DNA of 47,130 bases from a virus. The notes beneath the pieces are model-generated. The model made no database searches and was not told the origin of the DNA. It was given only the letters and a program-made list of their open reading frames with translations. Numbering within the stretch: position 1 is the first letter of the stretch; each line of letters opens with the position of its first letter. Where the stretch lies: the IMG/VR virus record IMGVR_UViG_3300046690_000084, positions 1 to 47,130 of that record, one strand, 5' to 3'. Below are positions 15,788 through 47,130 of the stretch, piece after piece. The translations under genes and the position numbers were made by a program.

Positions 15788-18262
15788 TTACTTGAAGGCG
15801 CTCTGGACTGCTGAAGCCGCCTCGGGCGATAGAAATGCCGAGTAGTGGTCGACAGCCTTGTCTCGCTCCTTGGAGTTAGAGCCAATCTTGTGAAGCTGGC
15901 GAACCAGTCCCTTGATGGCGTGCGAGAACTCAGGATATTGCGAGACTAGCGTCTGCTCAGCGTTGATACGCTTCTGCGCAGAATGCTCAGCCTTAGCGAG
16001 ATACTTCGGGCTCTTTGCTCCGTAAGCCGACGCCTCATGCACGGCATAAGCCTTCGCAGAGATGTCAGCAGGATACAGTTGAGCATCGTCGAGCGGTTCG
16101 TACGGTGTCGCCTTCGGTGCTTCCTCAGCCTTAGGGGCTTCGGTCTTCACCTTGCCGTTGCTCTTGCTGATCTTCATCGCAGGAGCAGGCGTTGCATTCT
16201 CCGCACCCGGTTCGGGAGGGAGACCCGCCTTCAGCTTCTGCTTGAGCATCGCCAGTGCAGTCGGGTTGAACTCAGGCGCTGCGGGAGCCGCAGGCGGAGC
16301 TTCAGCCGGAGGAGCCTCAGGAGCCGGTAGGCCTGCCTTGAGCTTTTTCTGCAGCATCGCGAGGGCCATCGGACTGATGTCCGGTTTGGCGGGCGGTGCC
16401 GGGGGTGGCGGTGCTTCAGGCTGCGGTTCAGGCGGCAAGCCTGCCTTCAGCTTCTGCTTCAGCATCTGCAGTGCCATCGGGTTGAACTCCGGGGCAGCAG
16501 GGGCCGCAGGGGCCGGGGGCGATGGCGCACCAGGTAGAGGTGTTGCCAGTTGCTTCTTCAGCATCTGCAGCGCCATCGGATTGAACTGAGGCGCAGGGGC
16601 AGGAGGGGCACCCGGAGGAGCAACCTGCGGGCCCGTAGGACCAGTCGCAGGAGGCCGAGGGCCCCACGGTGCATTGGTCGGCTGCGGCAGCGGAGGAGGC
16701 TGCTGCGGGACCGGAGGAGGCGTTGTGGCCTGCCGTAGCTGTGCGTTGTGATCAGCGAACGTCTTGGCGAAGTTTGCAGCCGGTCGTGATCCACCCGTGA
16801 CGCTGTCGAGGAGACGCGCACCACCAAGGCCGATACCGAGGCCGCCCATGAGGCCGCCACCGACTGCACCAGACACGTGAGGCATCCCGAATGCGAGAGC
16901 GCCGAGGCCTGCCATCGTGCCACCAATGTGCCAAGGGTTGAAGACGCCGCGCACGACGTTCTTCATTCCGCCAGTAGCGGAGCCTTGCCAGCCGGTCTTA
17001 GGATCGAATGATCCCTCACCCTCGGCCTGCTGCCCCGTCTTCAGCGCGCGAGCGAGGAAGTGAGCGTTGGCTCCATCGGGAGCATTGGCCGTTGCGGTCG
17101 TCAGGTGCTCCATGTCCTTCGGGGTGATCTGGTCACCACGTCGGATGGAAGCCATGGCGTTCGTCTCTTCGGGAGACAGAGACAGAGCCTTCTGCTGAGC
17201 GACCTTGTCCAAGGCGGCCTTAAGCTCACCGTGGGTGTCGGCCATGACCTTCTGATGCGCCTGTGCCGCCTCGTGAATGTTCGCGAGGTCGAGCCCAGTG
17301 TTCTGCAATCGAGTGGCGTAGTTGGCCGCAGCTTCCGGGTCGGCGTTGTACTTGCCCATGCGAATAGCACGAGCGCCTGCAGCGACTGCAGGGAGCACAT
17401 GCGGCGATACGCTTGCAGCGCCACCGACAGCCGCCTCAGGGAGAGCCGAGGGGTCGAAGGGCGCGTCGGTGCCAATCTTGGTGCCAGCCTGCGTGATAGC
17501 GTTCTGCGCTACGCCGCCGCCAGCGCCTACGGCACCGCGAGTGAGCAAGTTGGTCGCCACGCGACCGAGACCGTTCAAGCCAGCGCCGACTGCATTGCCA
17601 ATACCTGGAGCATGCATGATCGAGCCGGGGACGGCTGCAGCGAGCGTAGTGCCGATGCCGATGGCTTTGTCTTCGTCGTTCGGGACCGCGTTCTGGTCAC
17701 CCGAGCGGGCAACTGCACGAGCCTTGACGTTGTCGCCTGCCGAGGAGAGTGCGAGAGGCGCTACGCCACCCGCGACGGCACCAACCGGGCCGAGGAGGTC
17801 ACCGACCGCCGCACCAGCCGCTGACGTAGCAGCGAGAGGTGCTTGCTCAGCAATGAGCTTCGGTATCTGGCGTGGGCTCCACTTGAGAGGATTCCACGAG
17901 CCGTTGGTGACGTTGGCTGGTTTGTAGTCAGGGTCGACAGGCGCGTCGTTGACGTCGCTGCCGAGAATATTCTTACGTGAGGACTGTACGCCTCGAACCA
18001 TTTCGTTGTAGCCGTGCCGTGCACCCGACGCTATGTCCGAAATAATGCTAGGTTCTTCGGACACTTCAGGAGCCGCCGTAGTTGGCTTGGGAGCCGTCTT
18101 GGCACCACCGAAGTGTGAGAGGATTTCACCGGCAGAGTACCCCGCGTCCTTTGCAGCCTTGAATTTCTCAGGTGCCTTGGACGCGAGGTGGCTCACGATT
18201 TCGTCGTCAGAATAGCCAGCCGCGCGGGCCTGCGAGATTTGGTCCGCTGTTACGTCGGCCAT
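15788..18262 (-). CDS. Internal virion / DNA-ejection protein with repeats, 824 aa
   Basis: N-terminus: two copies of a short helical motif (AGYSDDEIVSHLA at 15-27 and AGYSAGEILSHFG at 40-52). The middle (~130-330) is Gly/Ala-rich and hydrophobic, resembling membrane-active ejection proteins (VGDLLGPVGAVAGGVAPLAL). Residues ~510-690 are Pro-rich linkers with four copies of a unit of form P-x-F/I-x-P-x-ALxML-K/Q-x-x-L. Such long proteins enter the host envelope with the DNA. Position (upstream of terS, downstream of the lysozyme-domain protein) fits the internal virion module. Confidence 0.7.
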   Translation of the reverse strand: MADVTADQISQARAAGYSDDEIVSHLASKAPEKFKAAKDAGYSAGEILSHFGGAKTAPKPTTAAPEVSEEPSIISDIASGARHGYNEMVRGVQSSRKNILGSDVNDAPVDPDYKPANVTNGSWNPLKWSPRQIPKLIAEQAPLAATSAAGAAVGDLLGPVGAVAGGVAPLALSSAGDNVKARAVARSGDQNAVPNDEDKAIGIGTTLAAAVPGSIMHAPGIGNAVGAGLNGLGRVATNLLTRGAVGAGGGVAQNAITQAGTKIGTDAPFDPSALPEAAVGGAASVSPHVLPAVAAGARAIRMGKYNADPEAAANYATRLQNTGLDLANIHEAAQAHQKVMADTHGELKAALDKVAQQKALSLSPEETNAMASIRRGDQITPKDMEHLTTATANAPDGANAHFLARALKTGQQAEGEGSFDPKTGWQGSATGGMKNVVRGVFNPWHIGGTMAGLGALAFGMPHVSGAVGGGLMGGLGIGLGGARLLDSVTGGSRPAANFAKTFADHNAQLRQATTPPPVPQQPPPLPQPTNAPWGPRPPATGPTGPQVAPPGAPPAPAPQFNPMALQMLKKQLATPLPGAPSPPAPAAPAAPEFNPMALQMLKQKLKAGLPPEPQPEAPPPPAPPAKPDISPMALAMLQKKLKAGLPAPEAPPAEAPPAAPAAPEFNPTALAMLKQKLKAGLPPEPGAENATPAPAMKISKSNGKVKTEAPKAEEAPKATPYEPLDDAQLYPADISAKAYAVHEASAYGAKSPKYLAKAEHSAQKRINAEQTLVSQYPEFSHAIKGLVRQLHKIGSNSKERDKAVDHYSAFLSPEAASAVQSAFK

Positions 18263-31205: not shown

Positions 31206-31301
31206 CCTAATACCTTCCACGTGTCAAAAGACTTCCCCAGCATAACTTATGTCGCCCGATCAAAGGGTTACCGGCTAAGCCGGGGGACGTTTAGCCAAGA
31301 C
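31206..31301 (+). promoter_or_regulatory. Upstream regulatory cassette of the RNA polymerase gene
   Basis: Contains CTAATACCTTCC, TGTCAAAAGACTTCCCC (31222-31238) and, 55 bases after the TGTC start, a 25-base element (31277-31301; core GGGGGACGTTTAGCC). The same two end elements with the same 55-base spacing recur after the gene at 33871-33950, while the middle differs. GGCTAA (31274-31279) and TTAGCC (31291-31296) form an inverted repeat in this copy. Promoter or processing site for host or phage polymerase is the likely role. Confidence 0.55.
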
Positions 31302-31319
31302 AAAAGGAACTGTTCCCCG

Positions 31320-33854
31320 ATGAACGCCATTCCGTCTACTCTGGAATTCGATCTAGCCGTTAAAAAGATCAACACCCAAGACACAAGAGCTAGGACCAAC
31401 GAAGGCTTCAGCAGCACCCTAGGTGCACGTAAGCTCACCGAGCGCAGCCTTAAGGCCGTGACGGCTGGTGTCGTTGATGCATTGAACAACAGCCACAAGC
31501 TTCGATCCGACAGCATGGAGTTCCGGCTCCAACGGGTCCTTAGGGGCCTGCAGCCCGAGGTGATCGCACTGGCGTGCCTCATGCCTGCGCTCAACAGCGT
31601 TGCCCTCGAACACACTCACCGTGACGCCGCGTTGGCCATTGGTGGCTCGCTGTGGACCGAGGCTTACATGGCCAAGCTTCTGGTCACCGACAAGAAGGCC
31701 GCAGGCGCCATTACGAAGGCCGCTGGCGAGCGCTTCGCCAATGTGAAGCTCAGGCAAGCCAAGGTGATCAAGGACGCCTCCAGCCGCCTAGGGTTCACTA
31801 TGGATGAATGGACGCGGCCGATGCGCCTGCACGCGGGCCAGTGGGGTGTGAACATCCTGCTGCAGACGTTGCCTGACGTGTTCGAGCTTCGCGAGATACC
31901 GAACGATAGCGAGAAGGCGTGGAGCGTCACCGACGAAGCCGCGACCATGATGGACGACGTCGTCAACGATGCCGTGCTGAAGTCTCCCGTGTATCAGCCG
32001 CGCACTGTGAAGCCTGACGATTGGACCGGCTTCTATTCGAAGATTGCAGAAGACAGGCGCTTTGGGTCCCTCGCGGTCCCCTTGGTCCGCACGCTGCACA
32101 AAGAGACCGTCGCCGCCATCAAGCACGCCATTCGCACGGGCCAGATGGATAGCGTCATGCGCGCAGTCAACAACCTGCAGAGCGTGCCTTACAAGCTCAA
32201 CGGTTGGCTGCTGGGTGTCCTGCAGGAATGCGACCACCTCGGCATCGAGGTTAAGGGCGTGCCCCCGAAGACGCCCAAGAAGGTCACCCCGCGCTCTGCG
32301 GATGACGTGTGGGCTGCAATGACCAAGGCTGAGCAGGGCCGTCGCGCTGCGCAGATCAAGACCGAGAAGAAGCGCAACCGCATCGACAAGGCTGCACGTC
32401 TCAAGTTTAACATCGACCTGAGCGTGGCCCGTCGCATGCAACTCGCTGAGCGCTTCTTTACCCCGATGAACCTCGACTGGCGCGGTCGCGTTTATTACCT
32501 CACGCAATTCAACTTCCAGCGCGAGGACTACGTGCGCGGCATGTTCCTGTTCGCCAACGGCAAGCCTGTAGGCGAGCGGGGCATCTATCACCTCAAGCTC
32601 CAATGCGCCAATACCTGGAGTGGCGAGCAGAAGCTCGACAAGCAGCCGATGCACGTGCGCGTGCAGTGGGCAAACGACAACATCGAACTGCTGCGGGACT
32701 ACGTTGCGCGTCCCTTGCACAACACCGATTGGACGAAGGCCGACAAGCCCTTCGCCTTCCTCGCTGCAGTCCGTGAGTTGGTCAACGCATGGGACAATCC
32801 GTCGTACGTCTGCCACCTTCCGGTAGCGTTCGATGGTAGCTGCAATGGCCTGCAGCATCTGTGCGCCATGACCCGTGCACCCGAAGGTAAGTTCGTCAAC
32901 CTGACGGATAACAAAACGCCCGAGGACATCTATCAACTGGTCGCGGACGCCGCGCTCAAGAGCATCGAGGCCGACAAGCACAGCGATACCTTGTATTACG
33001 CTCAGGGTCCCGCTGACGCTCCCCGCAAGGCTAACGCTACGCTGGGTGACCTCGCGCAACTCGCCATCGAGTATGGCGTCAACCGCAAGCTCGTGAAGCG
33101 TAACGTGATGACCTTCGCCTATAGCTCGAAAGAGAACGGGATGAAGGAACAGCACGTGGAAGACACCATCGACGCTGAGAGCCTCAAGGGCAACTATCCG
33201 TTCGGCACCACCTTTGCCGAGCAGCAGTTGGCCGCGTCGTATCTCGCCAAGCGCACGATGGCGGCGATTAAGAGCGTCGTGGGTAAGCCTGCCGAGGCTA
33301 TGGCCTTCATGCAGAAGCTCGCACAACAACTCGCTCACGAAGGCTCTGCGCTGACGTGGAAGACGCCCATGGGTCTCCCTTGGATCAACCGTTATCATTC
33401 GTCCAACGTGAAGGTCATCAAGCTCTCTTGCTACAGCAAGGGCGTTCGGGTGACCGTCGAGACGTCGCTGGCGGATGGCTTCGACGCGAACATCGCGAAG
33501 CGTGAGGTGACCAACGGCGTGGCCCCTAACTTTGTCCATGCCCTCGACGGAAGTCATTTGCAGGCCTCTGTGAACGCGGCTGCAGACCGGGGTGTCGTGG
33601 ACTTCGCTACTGTGCATGATAGCTACGGGTGCCTTCCAGCCGATGCTGACCTGTTCAATGAAGTCATCCGCGAGGAGTTCCTGCGCATCTATCAAAATAC
33701 CGACGTCCTGCAGGAGCTTCTAGATAATGCCAACGCGCAGCTATCTGAGGCTGGACGCGCCAAGCTGGCCAAAGAGCTTGAGAAGGCTCCGAAGCCTGTC
33801 CCGGGCGATCTGCCCTTGGAACAGGTGATCAGCGCTCTCTACGCCTTCGCGTGA
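31320..33854 (+). CDS. T7-type single-subunit DNA-directed RNA polymerase, 844 aa
   Basis: The frame is open further upstream, but ATG at 31320 has AAAAGGAA 10-15 bases before it and gives the usual N-terminus. Conserved blocks: DWRGRVYYL (from Asp386), LPVAFDGSCNGLQHL with catalytic Asp505 (T7 Asp537), RKLVKRNVMTFAYSSKENG with Lys593 and Tyr601 (T7 Lys631, Tyr639), NFVHALDGSHLQ, and ATVHDSYG with catalytic Asp767 (T7 Asp812). The C-terminus ends YAFA, like the T7 'foot'. It transcribes phage genes from its own promoters. The matched cassettes on both sides are promoter candidates. Confidence 0.95.
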   Translation: MNAIPSTLEFDLAVKKINTQDTRARTNEGFSSTLGARKLTERSLKAVTAGVVDALNNSHKLRSDSMEFRLQRVLRGLQPEVIALACLMPALNSVALEHTHRDAALAIGGSLWTEAYMAKLLVTDKKAAGAITKAAGERFANVKLRQAKVIKDASSRLGFTMDEWTRPMRLHAGQWGVNILLQTLPDVFELREIPNDSEKAWSVTDEAATMMDDVVNDAVLKSPVYQPRTVKPDDWTGFYSKIAEDRRFGSLAVPLVRTLHKETVAAIKHAIRTGQMDSVMRAVNNLQSVPYKLNGWLLGVLQECDHLGIEVKGVPPKTPKKVTPRSADDVWAAMTKAEQGRRAAQIKTEKKRNRIDKAARLKFNIDLSVARRMQLAERFFTPMNLDWRGRVYYLTQFNFQREDYVRGMFLFANGKPVGERGIYHLKLQCANTWSGEQKLDKQPMHVRVQWANDNIELLRDYVARPLHNTDWTKADKPFAFLAAVRELVNAWDNPSYVCHLPVAFDGSCNGLQHLCAMTRAPEGKFVNLTDNKTPEDIYQLVADAALKSIEADKHSDTLYYAQGPADAPRKANATLGDLAQLAIEYGVNRKLVKRNVMTFAYSSKENGMKEQHVEDTIDAESLKGNYPFGTTFAEQQLAASYLAKRTMAAIKSVVGKPAEAMAFMQKLAQQLAHEGSALTWKTPMGLPWINRYHSSNVKVIKLSCYSKGVRVTVETSLADGFDANIAKREVTNGVAPNFVHALDGSHLQASVNAAADRGVVDFATVHDSYGCLPADADLFNEVIREEFLRIYQNTDVLQELLDNANAQLSEAGRAKLAKELEKAPKPVPGDLPLEQVISALYAFA

Positions 33855-34792: not shown

Positions 34793-35248
34793 ATGCACAC
34801 GTTGTATCACGGCACTTCATCCATCAACCTCGACTGCATCAAGAAGGTCGGTCTCGAACCCGGCCACGCCAATGGTGGCGACGTGTGGGCCACTGAGCAC
34901 CACATGAGCGTCGGCAAGAACTCCGCACATCGGGGTCCACAGGTCTTCGTAGCTCTCAACAAAGAGCAGGCGGAAGACTTCGCGAACATCGCAGCCGAGG
35001 AAATGGGCGGCGAGCCAGTGATCATCGTGCTGCATGTCCCCGAGAAGGTGTTCGGCACCTTCAAGGTCGATGAACTGTTCGCTGACGGCATCTACGGGAC
35101 GCCTGAGGCTTGGCGTGCTCCCCACATTCCCGTGGGCTGCATCGGTGAAGTGCTGCCTGCCAAGAAGCACGCACCGTTCGGCGGCCGAGACCTGAGCGAC
35201 GACAACATCCTCGGGTCCCTTCTGGCCGACCTCTTCGGCTCTCACTAA
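34793..35248 (+). CDS. ADP-ribosyltransferase-like protein, 151 aa
   Basis: The N-terminus reads LYHGTSSINLDCIKKVGLEPG with His6-Gly-Thr, the first motif of the H-type ADP-ribosyltransferase/Tpt1 fold that holds NAD. Next come GGDVWATEHHMSVGKNSA, then VFVALNKEQAEDFANIA, matching the second block (strand plus 'A-x-x-FA' helix), and PVIIVLHVP, the third strand. These enzymes put ADP-ribose on protein or nucleic acid, or remove a 2'-phosphate. A catalytic Glu cannot be fixed by eye. Position just after RNA polymerase suggests a host-takeover enzyme, as T4 Alt/Mod. GGAG precedes the ATG. Confidence 0.65.
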   Translation: MHTLYHGTSSINLDCIKKVGLEPGHANGGDVWATEHHMSVGKNSAHRGPQVFVALNKEQAEDFANIAAEEMGGEPVIIVLHVPEKVFGTFKVDELFADGIYGTPEAWRAPHIPVGCIGEVLPAKKHAPFGGRDLSDDNILGSLLADLFGSH

Positions 35249-36153: not shown

Positions 36154-36352
36154 CTCGTTCTTCGCAGCTATCGTGTTGGCTTTCGTCGCATTCATGGCAA
36201 GCATCATCGCCCTTTGCAATTGGGGCGAAAGCAACCAGTGCGCCAACGCTGCTGCGGTCATGGGCGTCCCTTACGCCTACGGCTTCAACACGCCCTGCAT
36301 GGTGCAGGTCGACGGCAAGTGGCAACTGCTCAAGTATCCACGAAGGGACTAA
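36146..36352 (+). CDS. Small exported or membrane protein, 67 aa
   Basis: Hydrophobic N-terminus (FFAAIVLAFVAFMASIIALC) is a signal anchor or signal peptide; a following Cys-containing segment (CNWGESNQCANAAAVMG) and FNTPCMVQVDGKWQLL would lie outside. Three Cys suggest a periplasmic disulfide. Ends TAATG into the next gene. Confidence 0.55.
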   Translation: MPSSFFAAIVLAFVAFMASIIALCNWGESNQCANAAAVMGVPYAYGFNTPCMVQVDGKWQLLKYPRRD

Positions 36353-36465
36353 TGATCTTCGCCGTCCTCGCTAACCACCTCCTCGACGCTGTCGGGGTGA
36401 TCTACATCGTTTCAACCACCATCAAGATTGCTCGCGGATATCCCGTGAGCCGATGGTTCTTCTGA
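36352..36465 (+). CDS. Tiny membrane protein, 37 aa
   Basis: TAATG overlap. One hydrophobic span (LLDAVGVIYIVSTTIKIA) and a short basic-aromatic tail. Directly upstream of the TerB-like gene. Confidence 0.45.
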   Translation: MIFAVLANHLLDAVGVIYIVSTTIKIARGYPVSRWFF

Positions 36466-36478
36466 AGGGACTACTCCT

Positions 36479-36913
36479 ATGGGTTTGTTTGCCAAACTGT
36501 TCTCCGACGCCCGCCGCGCTGTGAACACCTACGTGGGCGACGACGCCTTCCTCAAGGGTGTTGCGTCGGCCGCTGCCAACGTGACCGCTGCTGACGGCAA
36601 GGTCGAAGACGCCGAGGTCGATGCCGCCATCAAGGGCATGCAGGCGAATACGCTGGTCGCTGGCTCGTTCAACTCCACGCAGATCAGCGACGCCTACGGT
36701 CTCGCCCTGATCCGTGCGAAGTCCCGTGCAGGCCGCATGGAGAACAAGCGCAACATCGAGGCTCTCGTGAGCCGCGAAGCCACCGTGCGTCAGGACGTCT
36801 TCCTGATCGCGGCCGACGTTGCCGACCAAGACGGTATCGGTGCCGAGGAAATGACCGTCCTCAACGACATCGCGACCCTGCTGAACCTCGACGCGAAGAA
36901 GCTTCTGGGTTGA
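36479..36913 (+). CDS. terB: TerB-family tellurite-resistance-like protein, 144 aa
   Basis: All-helical protein of TerB length (~150). Two matching halves carry the acidic metal-binding pattern: AAANVTAADGKVEDAEVDAA (about 34-53) and IAADVADQDGIGAEEMTVL (about 106-124). TerB is a cytosolic partner of the membrane protein TerC in ter operons, which are linked to tellurite resistance, metal sensing and historically to phage inhibition and colicin resistance. Here it lies 120 bases before a TerC-family gene, with a terminator between them. The ATG follows AAGGGAC. Confidence 0.8.
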   Translation: MGLFAKLFSDARRAVNTYVGDDAFLKGVASAAANVTAADGKVEDAEVDAAIKGMQANTLVAGSFNSTQISDAYGLALIRAKSRAGRMENKRNIEALVSREATVRQDVFLIAADVADQDGIGAEEMTVLNDIATLLNLDAKKLLG

Positions 36914-36990
36914 GCGTAGCAGAGCTAATCGTCACCGCGACGTTCTCCGTTGGGGTGCCGATCCTGATCTACATCGCTCGAACCATCTGA
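36910..36990 (+). CDS. Tiny membrane peptide, 26 aa
   Basis: TTG start within the TTGA overlap after the TerB-like gene. Sequence is a single hydrophobic span (VAELIVTATFSVGVPILIYIA). Likely a membrane peptide; function unknown. Confidence 0.4.
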   Translation: MSVAELIVTATFSVGVPILIYIARTI

Positions 36991-36994
36991 ACCT

Positions 36995-37019
36995 AAGGGG
37001 CCCTTCGGGGTCCCTTTTT
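36995..37019 (+). terminator. Rho-independent terminator between the TerB- and TerC-like genes
   Basis: GGGGCCC (36997-37003) pairs with GGGTCCC (37008-37014) around TTCG, with one G-U pair and A-T extension, followed by TTTTT. It can cut transcription before the TerC-family gene, so terC may be expressed by read-through or its own start. Confidence 0.85.
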
Positions 37020-37036
37020 CTTGGAGACTGCTTCCT

Positions 37037-37687
37037 TTGGAAACCTTCCTCGTATCGTTACTCGGCATCGTCTGGATTGACCTCCTGCTGTCGGGTGACA
37101 ACGCTGTCGTCATCGCGCTCGTCAGCAACCGCCTGCCTCCCGAGCAACAGAAGTGGGGCATCGTTGGCGGCACTGCTGCAGCCGTCCTGCTCCGCGTCGT
37201 CATGTCGTTCTTCGCTGTCTTCCTCCTCGGCGTTCCTGCGCTGTCGATTGTCGGCGGCCTGTTCCTGCTCAAGGTGGCCATTGGTCTCCTCGTGGAAGAG
37301 GCTGAGGACGAGAACGGAGACGCTGTGGGGCGCATCACGCTCTCTGCTGCCATTGGCACCATTGCCGTGGCTGACGCCTCCATGAGCCTCGACAACGTGC
37401 TTGCTGTGGCCGCTCTGGCCCATGGCAACATCGTCCTCATGGCGACTGGCGTCGTCCTGTCCATCCCGCTGGTCATCGCGGGCGCTGCTCTCATTAGCAA
37501 AGCCGTCGCACGCTTCCCGATCATGGTCTGGGCAGGCGCTGGCGTGCTGGGCTGGGTCGCTGGTGGCATCGTCGCTGCTGATCCGTGGGCTGCTCCGTAC
37601 CTGGATCACACCATCACCTCGGCTTCCGGCGTTGCACTGGTGCTCCTCGTGGGCCTCTGGGCGCGCTTCAAAAACAAGGCTGCATAA
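37037..37687 (+). CDS. terC: TerC-family membrane protein (YjbE/YkoY type), 216 aa
   Basis: Polytopic membrane protein with about six or seven hydrophobic spans. The family signatures are present: IDLLLSGDNAVVIAL (Asp15, Asp21-Asn22) in TM1, and DASMSLDNVLAVAA (Asp113, Asp119-Asn120) in a later span. These paired acidic motifs form the metal path of Mn2+-exporter TerC proteins. Length fits the short YjbE/YkoY type. Start is TTG at 37037 with GGAG ten bases upstream. Placed after the TerB-like gene, it suggests a functional pair. TerC is not a usual gene of T7-like phages. Confidence 0.85.
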   Translation: METFLVSLLGIVWIDLLLSGDNAVVIALVSNRLPPEQQKWGIVGGTAAAVLLRVVMSFFAVFLLGVPALSIVGGLFLLKVAIGLLVEEAEDENGDAVGRITLSAAIGTIAVADASMSLDNVLAVAALAHGNIVLMATGVVLSIPLVIAGAALISKAVARFPIMVWAGAGVLGWVAGGIVAADPWAAPYLDHTITSASGVALVLLVGLWARFKNKAA

Positions 37688-37688
37688 A

Positions 37689-37955
37689 ATGACAGATGAC
37701 GGCACTTCGATTGGACTTCTTGGCGTTGCTGCGTGGTTGGTCGGTGTCGTCTTCGTAGGCGCGGGCCAGTTAGGCACCTTCGATCCGCCTCCAGCGGCTC
37801 CGAGCATTGTGACCTCTGGCCCGCGATGCACCTTCGCATACCCTCGGGGCTTGAACCCGAGGACCCTCGCGAGGGTCACCAAGAAACCTAAAACCTGCGT
37901 GGACGGTGACCTTCAGTCAACGTGGCGGGGCTGCACGCCTCGCTTCAAAGCATAG
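37689..37955 (+). CDS. Small membrane-anchored protein, 88 aa
   Basis: A hydrophobic segment (IGLLGVAAWLVGVVFVGAG, residues 8-26) anchors a mostly basic, Pro-rich soluble part with three Cys (GPRCTFAYP; KTCVDGDLQSTWRGC). Probably periplasmic after the span. It directly follows the TerC-like gene, so an accessory of that membrane system is possible. Confidence 0.55.
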   Translation: MTDDGTSIGLLGVAAWLVGVVFVGAGQLGTFDPPPAAPSIVTSGPRCTFAYPRGLNPRTLARVTKKPKTCVDGDLQSTWRGCTPRFKA

Positions 37956-38006: not shown

Positions 38007-38606
38007 ATGGCTAAGACTACCGTTATCCTCCCCAAAGGCGTCGCTGTTTTCCCGAAGCTGAACGAGATTGACGTCTATCAGCCTCTGACCCCGTCCGGTA
38101 AGAAGAATGGCCCAGAGAAGCGCCGCTACATCACCGGCGTGAAGTTCAGCGACGAAGACCATCGCAAGGTCGACGCTTACCTGAAGAAGCAGTTGAAGGC
38201 TAACAACCTTCCGGCAAATGCCAAGCTGCCGTGGCGGCAGGACAAGAAGGACAATTCCTTCTCTCTCCAGATGACCTCTGGCGAAGACTATCCGCCGCCG
38301 TTCGTCGACGCTGCGGGCAACGAAGTCCCGCGTAACAAGGTGAAGATTGGTGGCGGCTCGATCATCAAGCCCGACGTCACCGTCAACGCCTACGATGGTT
38401 TTGGGGGAGGCATCAATCTCTACATCAACCAAATCCAGATCATCGAACTCAAGACCCGCGTCTTGAACAAGTTCGAGGCCGAAGAGGGCGGTTACGTCTT
38501 CAACGGTGGTGATGCTGATGAAGACCGGTCGGAAGACCTCGACGACGCTGAGCCCGAGGCCCCCGAGGCACCGGACAGCAACACGGACGATGACATTCCG
38601 TTCTAA
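38007..38606 (+). CDS. Single-stranded DNA-binding protein (gp2.5-like), 199 aa
   Basis: N-terminal OB-fold pattern (strands VILPKGVAVFPKLN, GEDYPPPFVDAAGNEVPRNK) and an acidic C-terminal tail (residues ~170-199) ending DDDIPF, the tip that docks replication partners in SSBs. Length is close to T7 gp2.5 (232 aa). It coats ssDNA and recruits polymerase and primase-helicase. First gene of the replication module. Confidence 0.85.
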   Translation: MAKTTVILPKGVAVFPKLNEIDVYQPLTPSGKKNGPEKRRYITGVKFSDEDHRKVDAYLKKQLKANNLPANAKLPWRQDKKDNSFSLQMTSGEDYPPPFVDAAGNEVPRNKVKIGGGSIIKPDVTVNAYDGFGGGINLYINQIQIIELKTRVLNKFEAEEGGYVFNGGDADEDRSEDLDDAEPEAPEAPDSNTDDDIPF

Positions 38607-46891: not shown

Positions 46892-47066
46892 GCGCAACGG
46901 GTCCCATCGCTTCCGTGTGACGCCTGACGGGCTCGTACTGGAAGTGGGCTACAGCTACTTCGCGTCCCAGCCCAATGGCGTGTGCGTCTGGAAGAACGAC
47001 TATCGGCGCGCAACGGCTGACGACATCACTGACCCGAGCCTGCTAGTTGGCGTATCGGGTTCGTGA
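46881..47066 (+). CDS. Small hypothetical protein, 61 aa (complete copy)
   Basis: Full-length form of the gene cut at the left end. Strand-rich (SHRFRVTPDGLVLEVGYSYF) with NGVCVWKNDYRRA. The four differences from the left copy are silent. It overlaps the GNAT gene start by 20 bases. Confidence 0.65.
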   Translation: MTSERNGSHRFRVTPDGLVLEVGYSYFASQPNGVCVWKNDYRRATADDITDPSLLVGVSGS

Positions 47067-47130
47067 GGTTGACGGCCTCGACGAAGAGATTGTCGACGTC
47101 ATCCGAGAGCTTCACGAAGAAGTCTTCGGT
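46898..47130. repeat. Right copy of the terminal redundancy
   Basis: Direct repeat of 1-233 with four silent differences. Holds the end of the 61-aa gene and the start of the GNAT gene. Confidence 0.9.
47047..47130 (+). CDS. GNAT acetyltransferase, first 28 codons (cut by window edge)
   Basis: Identical to the start of the complete gene at 150-596, from the TTG start. It is truncated only by the end of the window and continues at the left end of the circular map. Confidence 0.8.
   Translation, partial: MAYRVREVDGLDEEIVDVIRELHEEVFG

Follow-up and report, generated by a model that had tools for sequence, protein, structure and literature searches.

In the early region of the phage studied here, a series of short genes runs along the plus strand in the order 37-aa peptide, TerB, 26-aa peptide, terminator-like stem-loop, TerC and Cys-containing protein. 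This terB/terC block is housed between the gene of a T7-type RNA polymerase (31221-33854, plus strand; PF00940, E 1e-83) and that of a Gp2.5-like ssDNA-binding protein, which marks the downstream limit of the region (38007-38606, plus strand; phrog_112, E 3.5e-14). The window, meaning the whole stretch of 47,130 nucleotides that was analysed, is a 47-kb T7-like phage genome. It is probably a complete linear genome since it ends in direct repeats of 233 bp (1-233 and 46898-47130) that are 98% identical. The phage is probably strictly lytic and its RNA polymerase shows only about 30% identity to that of any isolate. A tRNA search found none, and an Rfam search of the window identified neither a Mn riboswitch (yybP-ykoY) nor any other Rfam element.

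Several other features of this genome were observed. The main open reading frames occupy the minus strand at 3564-24685 and the plus strand at 26128-47066, whereas the T7 layout uses one strand. A 25-bp motif, AGCTTCCNNNTGTCAAAAGACTTCC, occurs in three copies near gene starts (26088, 31212 and 33861, plus strand; zero expected by chance) and is a possible phage promoter or regulatory repeat. An early 151-aa protein (34793-35248, N-terminus MHTLYHGTSSINLDCIKKVGL) shows weak likeness to RNA 2'-phosphotransferase/ADP-ribosyltransferase folds (phrog_5470, E 0.2; phrog_11974, E 0.005) and is a candidate host-takeover ADP-ribosyltransferase. Four approximate 87-nt repeats, spaced by 99-108 bp, are found at 16208-16609 within a long minus-strand open reading frame (15788-18262).

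The gene at 37037-37687 (plus strand, TTG start) encodes a 216-aa membrane protein of the TerC family. It scores 141.1 bits against PF03741 (cut-off 27.8, E 4e-41) and 187 bits against the YjbE profile TIGR03717 (cut-off 134.8), but only 65.6 bits against the YkoY profile (cut-off 138.5); the YjbE score is also higher than that for Alx. All 25 rows of the TerC alignment match the YjbE profile. These scores clearly place the protein in the YjbE subfamily rather than with the ter-operon type. It carries the two metal motifs that an earlier note on this DNA had pointed out, SGDNAVV and SLDNVLAV, whose residues D21-N22 and D119-N120 are invariant across the 25 rows and in all phage copies. Hydropathy analysis predicts about seven hydrophobic segments. 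The AlphaFold model (pLDDT 53) is too poor for fold comparison and a PDB search with the sequence retrieved no relative. The protein resembles bacterial YjbE in its length, in both metal motifs, in its hydrophobic segments and in a score above the curated cut-off, but it differs in being paired with TerB and in that no yybP-ykoY riboswitch was found.

The upstream member of the pair (36479-36913, plus strand, 144 aa) is a TerB-like cytosolic protein. Taken alone, it reaches 18.5 bits against PF05099, below the Pfam gathering cut-off of 24.4, while its 21 phage relatives all match this profile at E 0.1 or better (best 1.3e-4); it is for this reason labelled 'TerB-like' here. It also matches phrog_632 ('tellurite resistance') at 1.4e-19. 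The AlphaFold model is all-helical (mean pLDDT 83) and its top PDB fold match is the solved TerB structure 2ou3, with a probability of 0.96 but an E value of 0.2 and a TM score of 0.45. Against BFVD, the best viral match is an unnamed protein (E 1.5e-8). PDB searches with the sequence and with its profile identified no relative. The two acidic half-repeats described previously are both present, as D39-G40-x3-D44-x-E46 and D118-G119-x4-E124. Residues D39, G40, D44, E46, D116, G119 and E124 are invariant in the 21 phage relatives; D118 of the second half-motif, however, is replaced by Gly in most of them. The TerB homology proposed in the earlier note holds at the family level, and the protein is best regarded, from its profile and fold matches, as a divergent member of the TerB family. 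It shares with PF05099 proteins the helical model, the two acidic half-motifs and a predicted fold whose nearest, though weak, match is 2ou3, and differs from them by its sub-cut-off score and by the second half-motif Asp that is not conserved among relatives.

Small membrane proteins accompany the pair. A 37-aa peptide with a single transmembrane segment, MIFAVLANHLLDAVGVIYIVSTTIKIARGYPVSRWFF, is encoded immediately 5' of terB (36352-36465, plus strand). Among the terB-terC contigs tested, only L043 lacks it; T7-like contigs without the pair do not have it, and in L054 it is truncated. It was rejected as a component of this module only, because it also lies upstream of TAXI binding proteins in other phages (BDU-MI-1 and EBPR siphovirus 2). 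The peptide is a conserved companion of terB-terC, not an exclusive one. Single-transmembrane peptides of 37-41 aa sharing the core NHxLDxxG...IK...YPxxRWFF recur in unrelated phages before terB or before a TAXI-type periplasmic binding protein (besides the window copy, L164:7989-8108, L165:8001-8114 and L166:3869-3994), and have no match in Pfam or PHROGs. The phage-encoded TAXI/NMT1-like protein is a secreted solute-binding protein of the TRAP-transporter type (L164:8171-9052, L165:8152-9054, L013:8317-9198). It is 87-90% identical between BDU-MI-1 and soil contigs, and one is also annotated on the Methylobacterium indicum plasmid pVL1_2.

The 26-aa membrane peptide of the earlier note (36910-36987, plus strand) is hydrophobic, has one transmembrane segment and uses a TTG start overlapping the terB stop. 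A single-transmembrane open reading frame occurs at the same place in most T7-like relatives and is absent from the BDU-MI-1-like ones. The terminator proposed between the genes corresponds to an intrinsic-terminator-like stem-loop (36995-37016, plus strand), although terminator counts across the region do not exceed those of shuffled sequence. The neighbouring membrane-anchored Cys-containing protein (37689-37955, plus strand, 88 aa) exists as described but was rejected as a member of the module: it persists in four relatives without terB and terC (L054, L059, L157, L158), and in L054 the protein and both flanks remain after loss of the block. In one T7-like cousin (L020:5382-5561), a homologue of this protein sits between terB and terC rather than after terC.

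Viral contigs were scanned with TerC and with TerB, which gave 27 contigs containing this TerC or full-length TerB relatives. All 27 carry both genes, with terB first, on one strand and with a spacing of 16 to about 730 bp; the pair pointed out in this T7-like phage is thus adjacent in every relative that carries it. Three additional TerB matches span just 38 residues and their contigs contain no TerC. Many of these viral contigs share similar sample numbers and possibly come from a few sites. A second survey was anchored on the RNA polymerase and the ssDNA-binding protein, which avoids the bias of starting from the ter genes. Contigs of the window's T7-like lineage were counted if they covered the region: 13, among them the window, have both genes, 6 have neither (L054, L059, L157, L158, L161, L162) and none has only one, although these counts do not represent independent events because several contigs are near-identical. 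A seventh contig without the pair, L159, was left out of the count since it is too short upstream. Purifying selection acts on terB as well as on terC (dN/dS 0.08-0.56).

One of the contigs without the pair preserves the trace of its loss. L054 is 95% identical to L058 upstream of the block and 91% identical downstream, and 1.4 kb of L058 is replaced by about 0.2 kb. The remnant, read by eye from the printed sequence, is V-I-V-A-V-F-T-T-D-K-A-A-stop, in which the start of the 37-aa peptide is joined to the last residues of TerC. Such a fusion between retained flanks indicates a single deletion of the whole block. L059 resembles L054, with the whole block missing and both flanks retained. terB and terC are gained or lost as one unit.

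The pair was found in five genomic contexts. In the window's lineage (context 1) it lies within the early region, while in related T7-like phages (context 2; L012, L018-L025) it follows the replication genes and lies close to those for the tail. This difference bears on a counter-defence role, in which the pair would neutralise a host defence such as a metal-dependent nuclease or a Ter-type sensor, by metal titration or with TerB as a decoy. The early host-takeover location between RNA polymerase and ssDNA-binding protein and the PHROG category of both genes (moron/host takeover) are consistent with this role. However, the T7-like cousins place the pair elsewhere, no target was identified and the conserved metal motifs point to an activity rather than to a decoy. 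No evidence was found for the role against a 'ter-type defence' that the earlier note had raised. We consider counter-defence improbable.

In context 3 (L013, L014, L017, L026), the contigs are syntenic with Bradyrhizobium phage BDU-MI-1 and the pair is found between a class II ribonucleotide reductase gene and a shared downstream gene. BDU-MI-1 has no pair at the syntenic site, and searching its genome with TerB and with TerC gave no match to either. Comparison of these sequences indicates that the pair is an insertion relative to BDU-MI-1. In context 4, only 16 bp separate terB from terC, on a contig of 72 kb that also carries genes for NAD salvage (L043). On its minus strand, a nicotinamide phosphoribosyltransferase gene (phrog_448) adjoins an open reading frame that reads like a NadM-Nudix fusion (L043:2631-5442), an apparent NAD-salvage cassette. 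Context 5 is pVL1_2, a 128-kb circle with terB next to terC and, two genes upstream of terB, a homologue of the 37-aa peptide. Its annotation includes genes for a tail sheath, a tail tube, a tape measure protein and a lysozyme, and in view of the phage tail genes it is probably a phage-plasmid. pVL1_2 shares with the window the adjacent pair and the peptide homologue, but differs by its contractile-tailed, non-T7-like phage genes, and its TerC and TerB are 40% and 52% identical, respectively, to those of the window.

In the TerC tree, the 23 copies of this phage clade (contexts 1-4) form one group (support 100/97), set apart from Otagovirus and Rhizobium-phage TerC and near Hyphomicrobiales YjbE, although this wider grouping is weakly supported. 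The phylogeny called for in the earlier note yields one phage clade; the nearest bacterial YjbE found is only about 51-52% identical to the phage protein. The window phage is linked to Hyphomicrobiales only through this tree, BDU-MI-1 and pVL1_2, which together suggest the association. More generally, the pair carriers are several unrelated phages linked mainly to soil alphaproteobacteria.

TerB proteins fall into two types whose distribution over the TerC tree is no better than that of shuffled labels. Partners have therefore been exchanged, yet the pair was always retained. The comparison of contexts shows that the pair has moved between phage lineages, and the block 36352-37687 would be a mobile accessory module built on it. 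The mosaic nature of T7-like early regions and the disagreement between the TerB and TerC trees could also be explained if the two genes were unrelated neighbours, brought together by chance in one hypervariable early region. This interpretation is disfavoured, and in our view very unlikely, since the same pair recurs with one order and one strand across five contexts, pVL1_2 and unrelated phages among them, and since its presence is all-or-none.

The pair does not resemble a copy of a host operon. Phage-type TerB was found within 6 kb of bacterial TerC at none of 80 loci, nor did any of the 11 whole genomes from which such loci came contain it, and the possibility of a copied host operon was rejected because no phage-type pair occurred at the bacterial TerC loci examined. 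Among 121 genomes of the order that includes Bosea, PF05099 is present in at least 118 and YjbE is above cut-off in at least 56, but reading the matches listed by eye revealed no TerB-family and YjbE genes within 5 kb of each other. The absence of neighbouring TerB and YjbE genes among those listed leaves the pairing without a cellular precedent in this order. Phage-type TerB was detected in only 3 of the 121 genomes; one of these matches is strong, with no TerC within the surrounding 3.4 kb.

Nor is the block a ter operon, since neither TerD (PF02342) nor TelA (PF05816) has a match in the window; TerD was likewise not found in five related records. The connection made previously with the tellurite-associated ter operons is not sustained, as these components were not found and the TerC belongs to the YjbE subfamily. 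As auxiliary genes, the pair could make a host that carries the phage for a long time resistant to tellurite or metals, which would agree with the way TerB and TerC have been annotated in the past and with the presence of the pair on the episomal element pVL1_2. However, the minimal tellurite determinant needs terB, terC, terD and terE (PMC8123226), searches of the window and of the tested relatives revealed no TerD, and the phage studied here, being T7-like, is probably strictly lytic. With TerD and TerE lacking, tellurite resistance is unlikely, and we regard host resistance as a whole as highly improbable.

We favour, with a confidence that is about even, a phage accessory TerB-TerC membrane complex that would move a divalent metal, Mn2+ by homology, in the infected cell. 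The TerC protein, of the YjbE type, would span the inner membrane several times and transport divalent metal or pass it on, most likely by exporting Mn2+ and/or by loading metal onto exported proteins, and TerB would be its acidic cytosolic partner. The pair, presumably expressed during infection and beneficial to the phage, would form a membrane complex and, in a host-takeover or auxiliary role, alter the metal balance of the infected cell and the way its membrane behaves. The invariance of the metal residues and the selection acting on both genes argue that phage TerB and TerC are active and, together with the TerC/TerB literature, favour such a metal-shifting complex. Several bacteria export Mn2+ through TerC proteins (reviewed in PMC13274385), and in B. 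subtilis such proteins load Mn onto exported enzymes beside the Sec translocon (PMC10550928). A physical TerB-TerC complex is suggested by relatives: a TerC-TerB complex of E. coli is cited as reported in PMC12054061 and PMC8123226. For the YjbE subfamily in particular, Mn2+ is a putative substrate, because B. subtilis YjbE gave no phenotype under the conditions tested (PMC10550928). The negative riboswitch search and the missing cellular precedent for the pairing in the order of Bosea also weigh against this reading.

The main rival of this metal-moving complex is superinfection exclusion or competition, in which membrane changes caused by the TerB-TerC complex would hinder injection or replication by a second phage. 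In K. pneumoniae, eight phages form larger plaques when canonical terC is deleted, and phage inhibition is weakened by transposon insertions in terC, terD and terZ (PMC12054061). For the Ter systems of jumbo phages, Iyer et al. proposed an action against competitors (PMC7824862). Inter-phage competition would fit a block that is accessory, has moved between phages, is also found in an element with phage tail genes and lies beside small membrane peptides. However, the experimental link concerns a complete ter operon and a different TerC subfamily, TerD and TelA were not found here, and PADLOC models gave no match at E 0.01. We judge this alternative possible but doubtful. Metal movement and superinfection exclusion may also be two views of a single mechanism.

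Phages are already known to carry TerC or TerB by itself, as well as larger Ter clusters (PMC11256456, PMC6536676, PMC8421299, PMC7824862). TerC has been documented in Otagovirus and other large phages (PMC11256456; PMC7824862), and Ter-like clusters such as TelA-vWA-TerC-TerD occur in Otagovirus VCM and also in Acinetobacter phage ME3 (PMC7824862). The window shares with the ter operon (terZABCDEF) and with these clusters a TerC beside a Ter-family partner, in the latter case in a phage (PMC7824862), but it has only TerB and a YjbE-type TerC, and its TerC falls in another clade than that of Otagovirus. Phages PMBT3, Lana, phiM5 and Pyei1 carry a stand-alone TerB (PMC8421299, PMC6536676) and resemble the window in that TerB is phage-borne; in PMBT3, however, it occurs without a reported TerC, and tblastn detected no TerC in phiM5 and Pyei1. 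Among 50,697 phage records, TerC matches of this kind are confined to phages of 94-171 kb, and hence occur in no T7-sized genome of that set. The literature covered, outside which most subscription journals lie, yielded no description of the pairing of TerB with a YjbE-type TerC, of its inheritance as a unit or of the 37-aa peptide. The block may tentatively be viewed as a previously undescribed transferable competition or takeover module, distinct from the ter operon, in which a YjbE-type TerC, TerB and one or two tiny membrane peptides would change metal flux or membrane state in unrelated Hyphomicrobiales-linked phages.

The task of TerB in its partnership with TerC and the basis of the effect of ter genes on phages are problems of long standing. 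In this block the system is reduced to two proteins and small peptides; selection maintains it in four or more different phage backgrounds, and it is inherited as a unit. An element of a culturable Methylobacterium also carries the pair. Together, these features offer a minimal system for a direct test of the TerB-TerC partnership and of the link between ter genes and phages. If the proposed function is true, metal export would be added to the routes by which phages compete with one another or take over their hosts.
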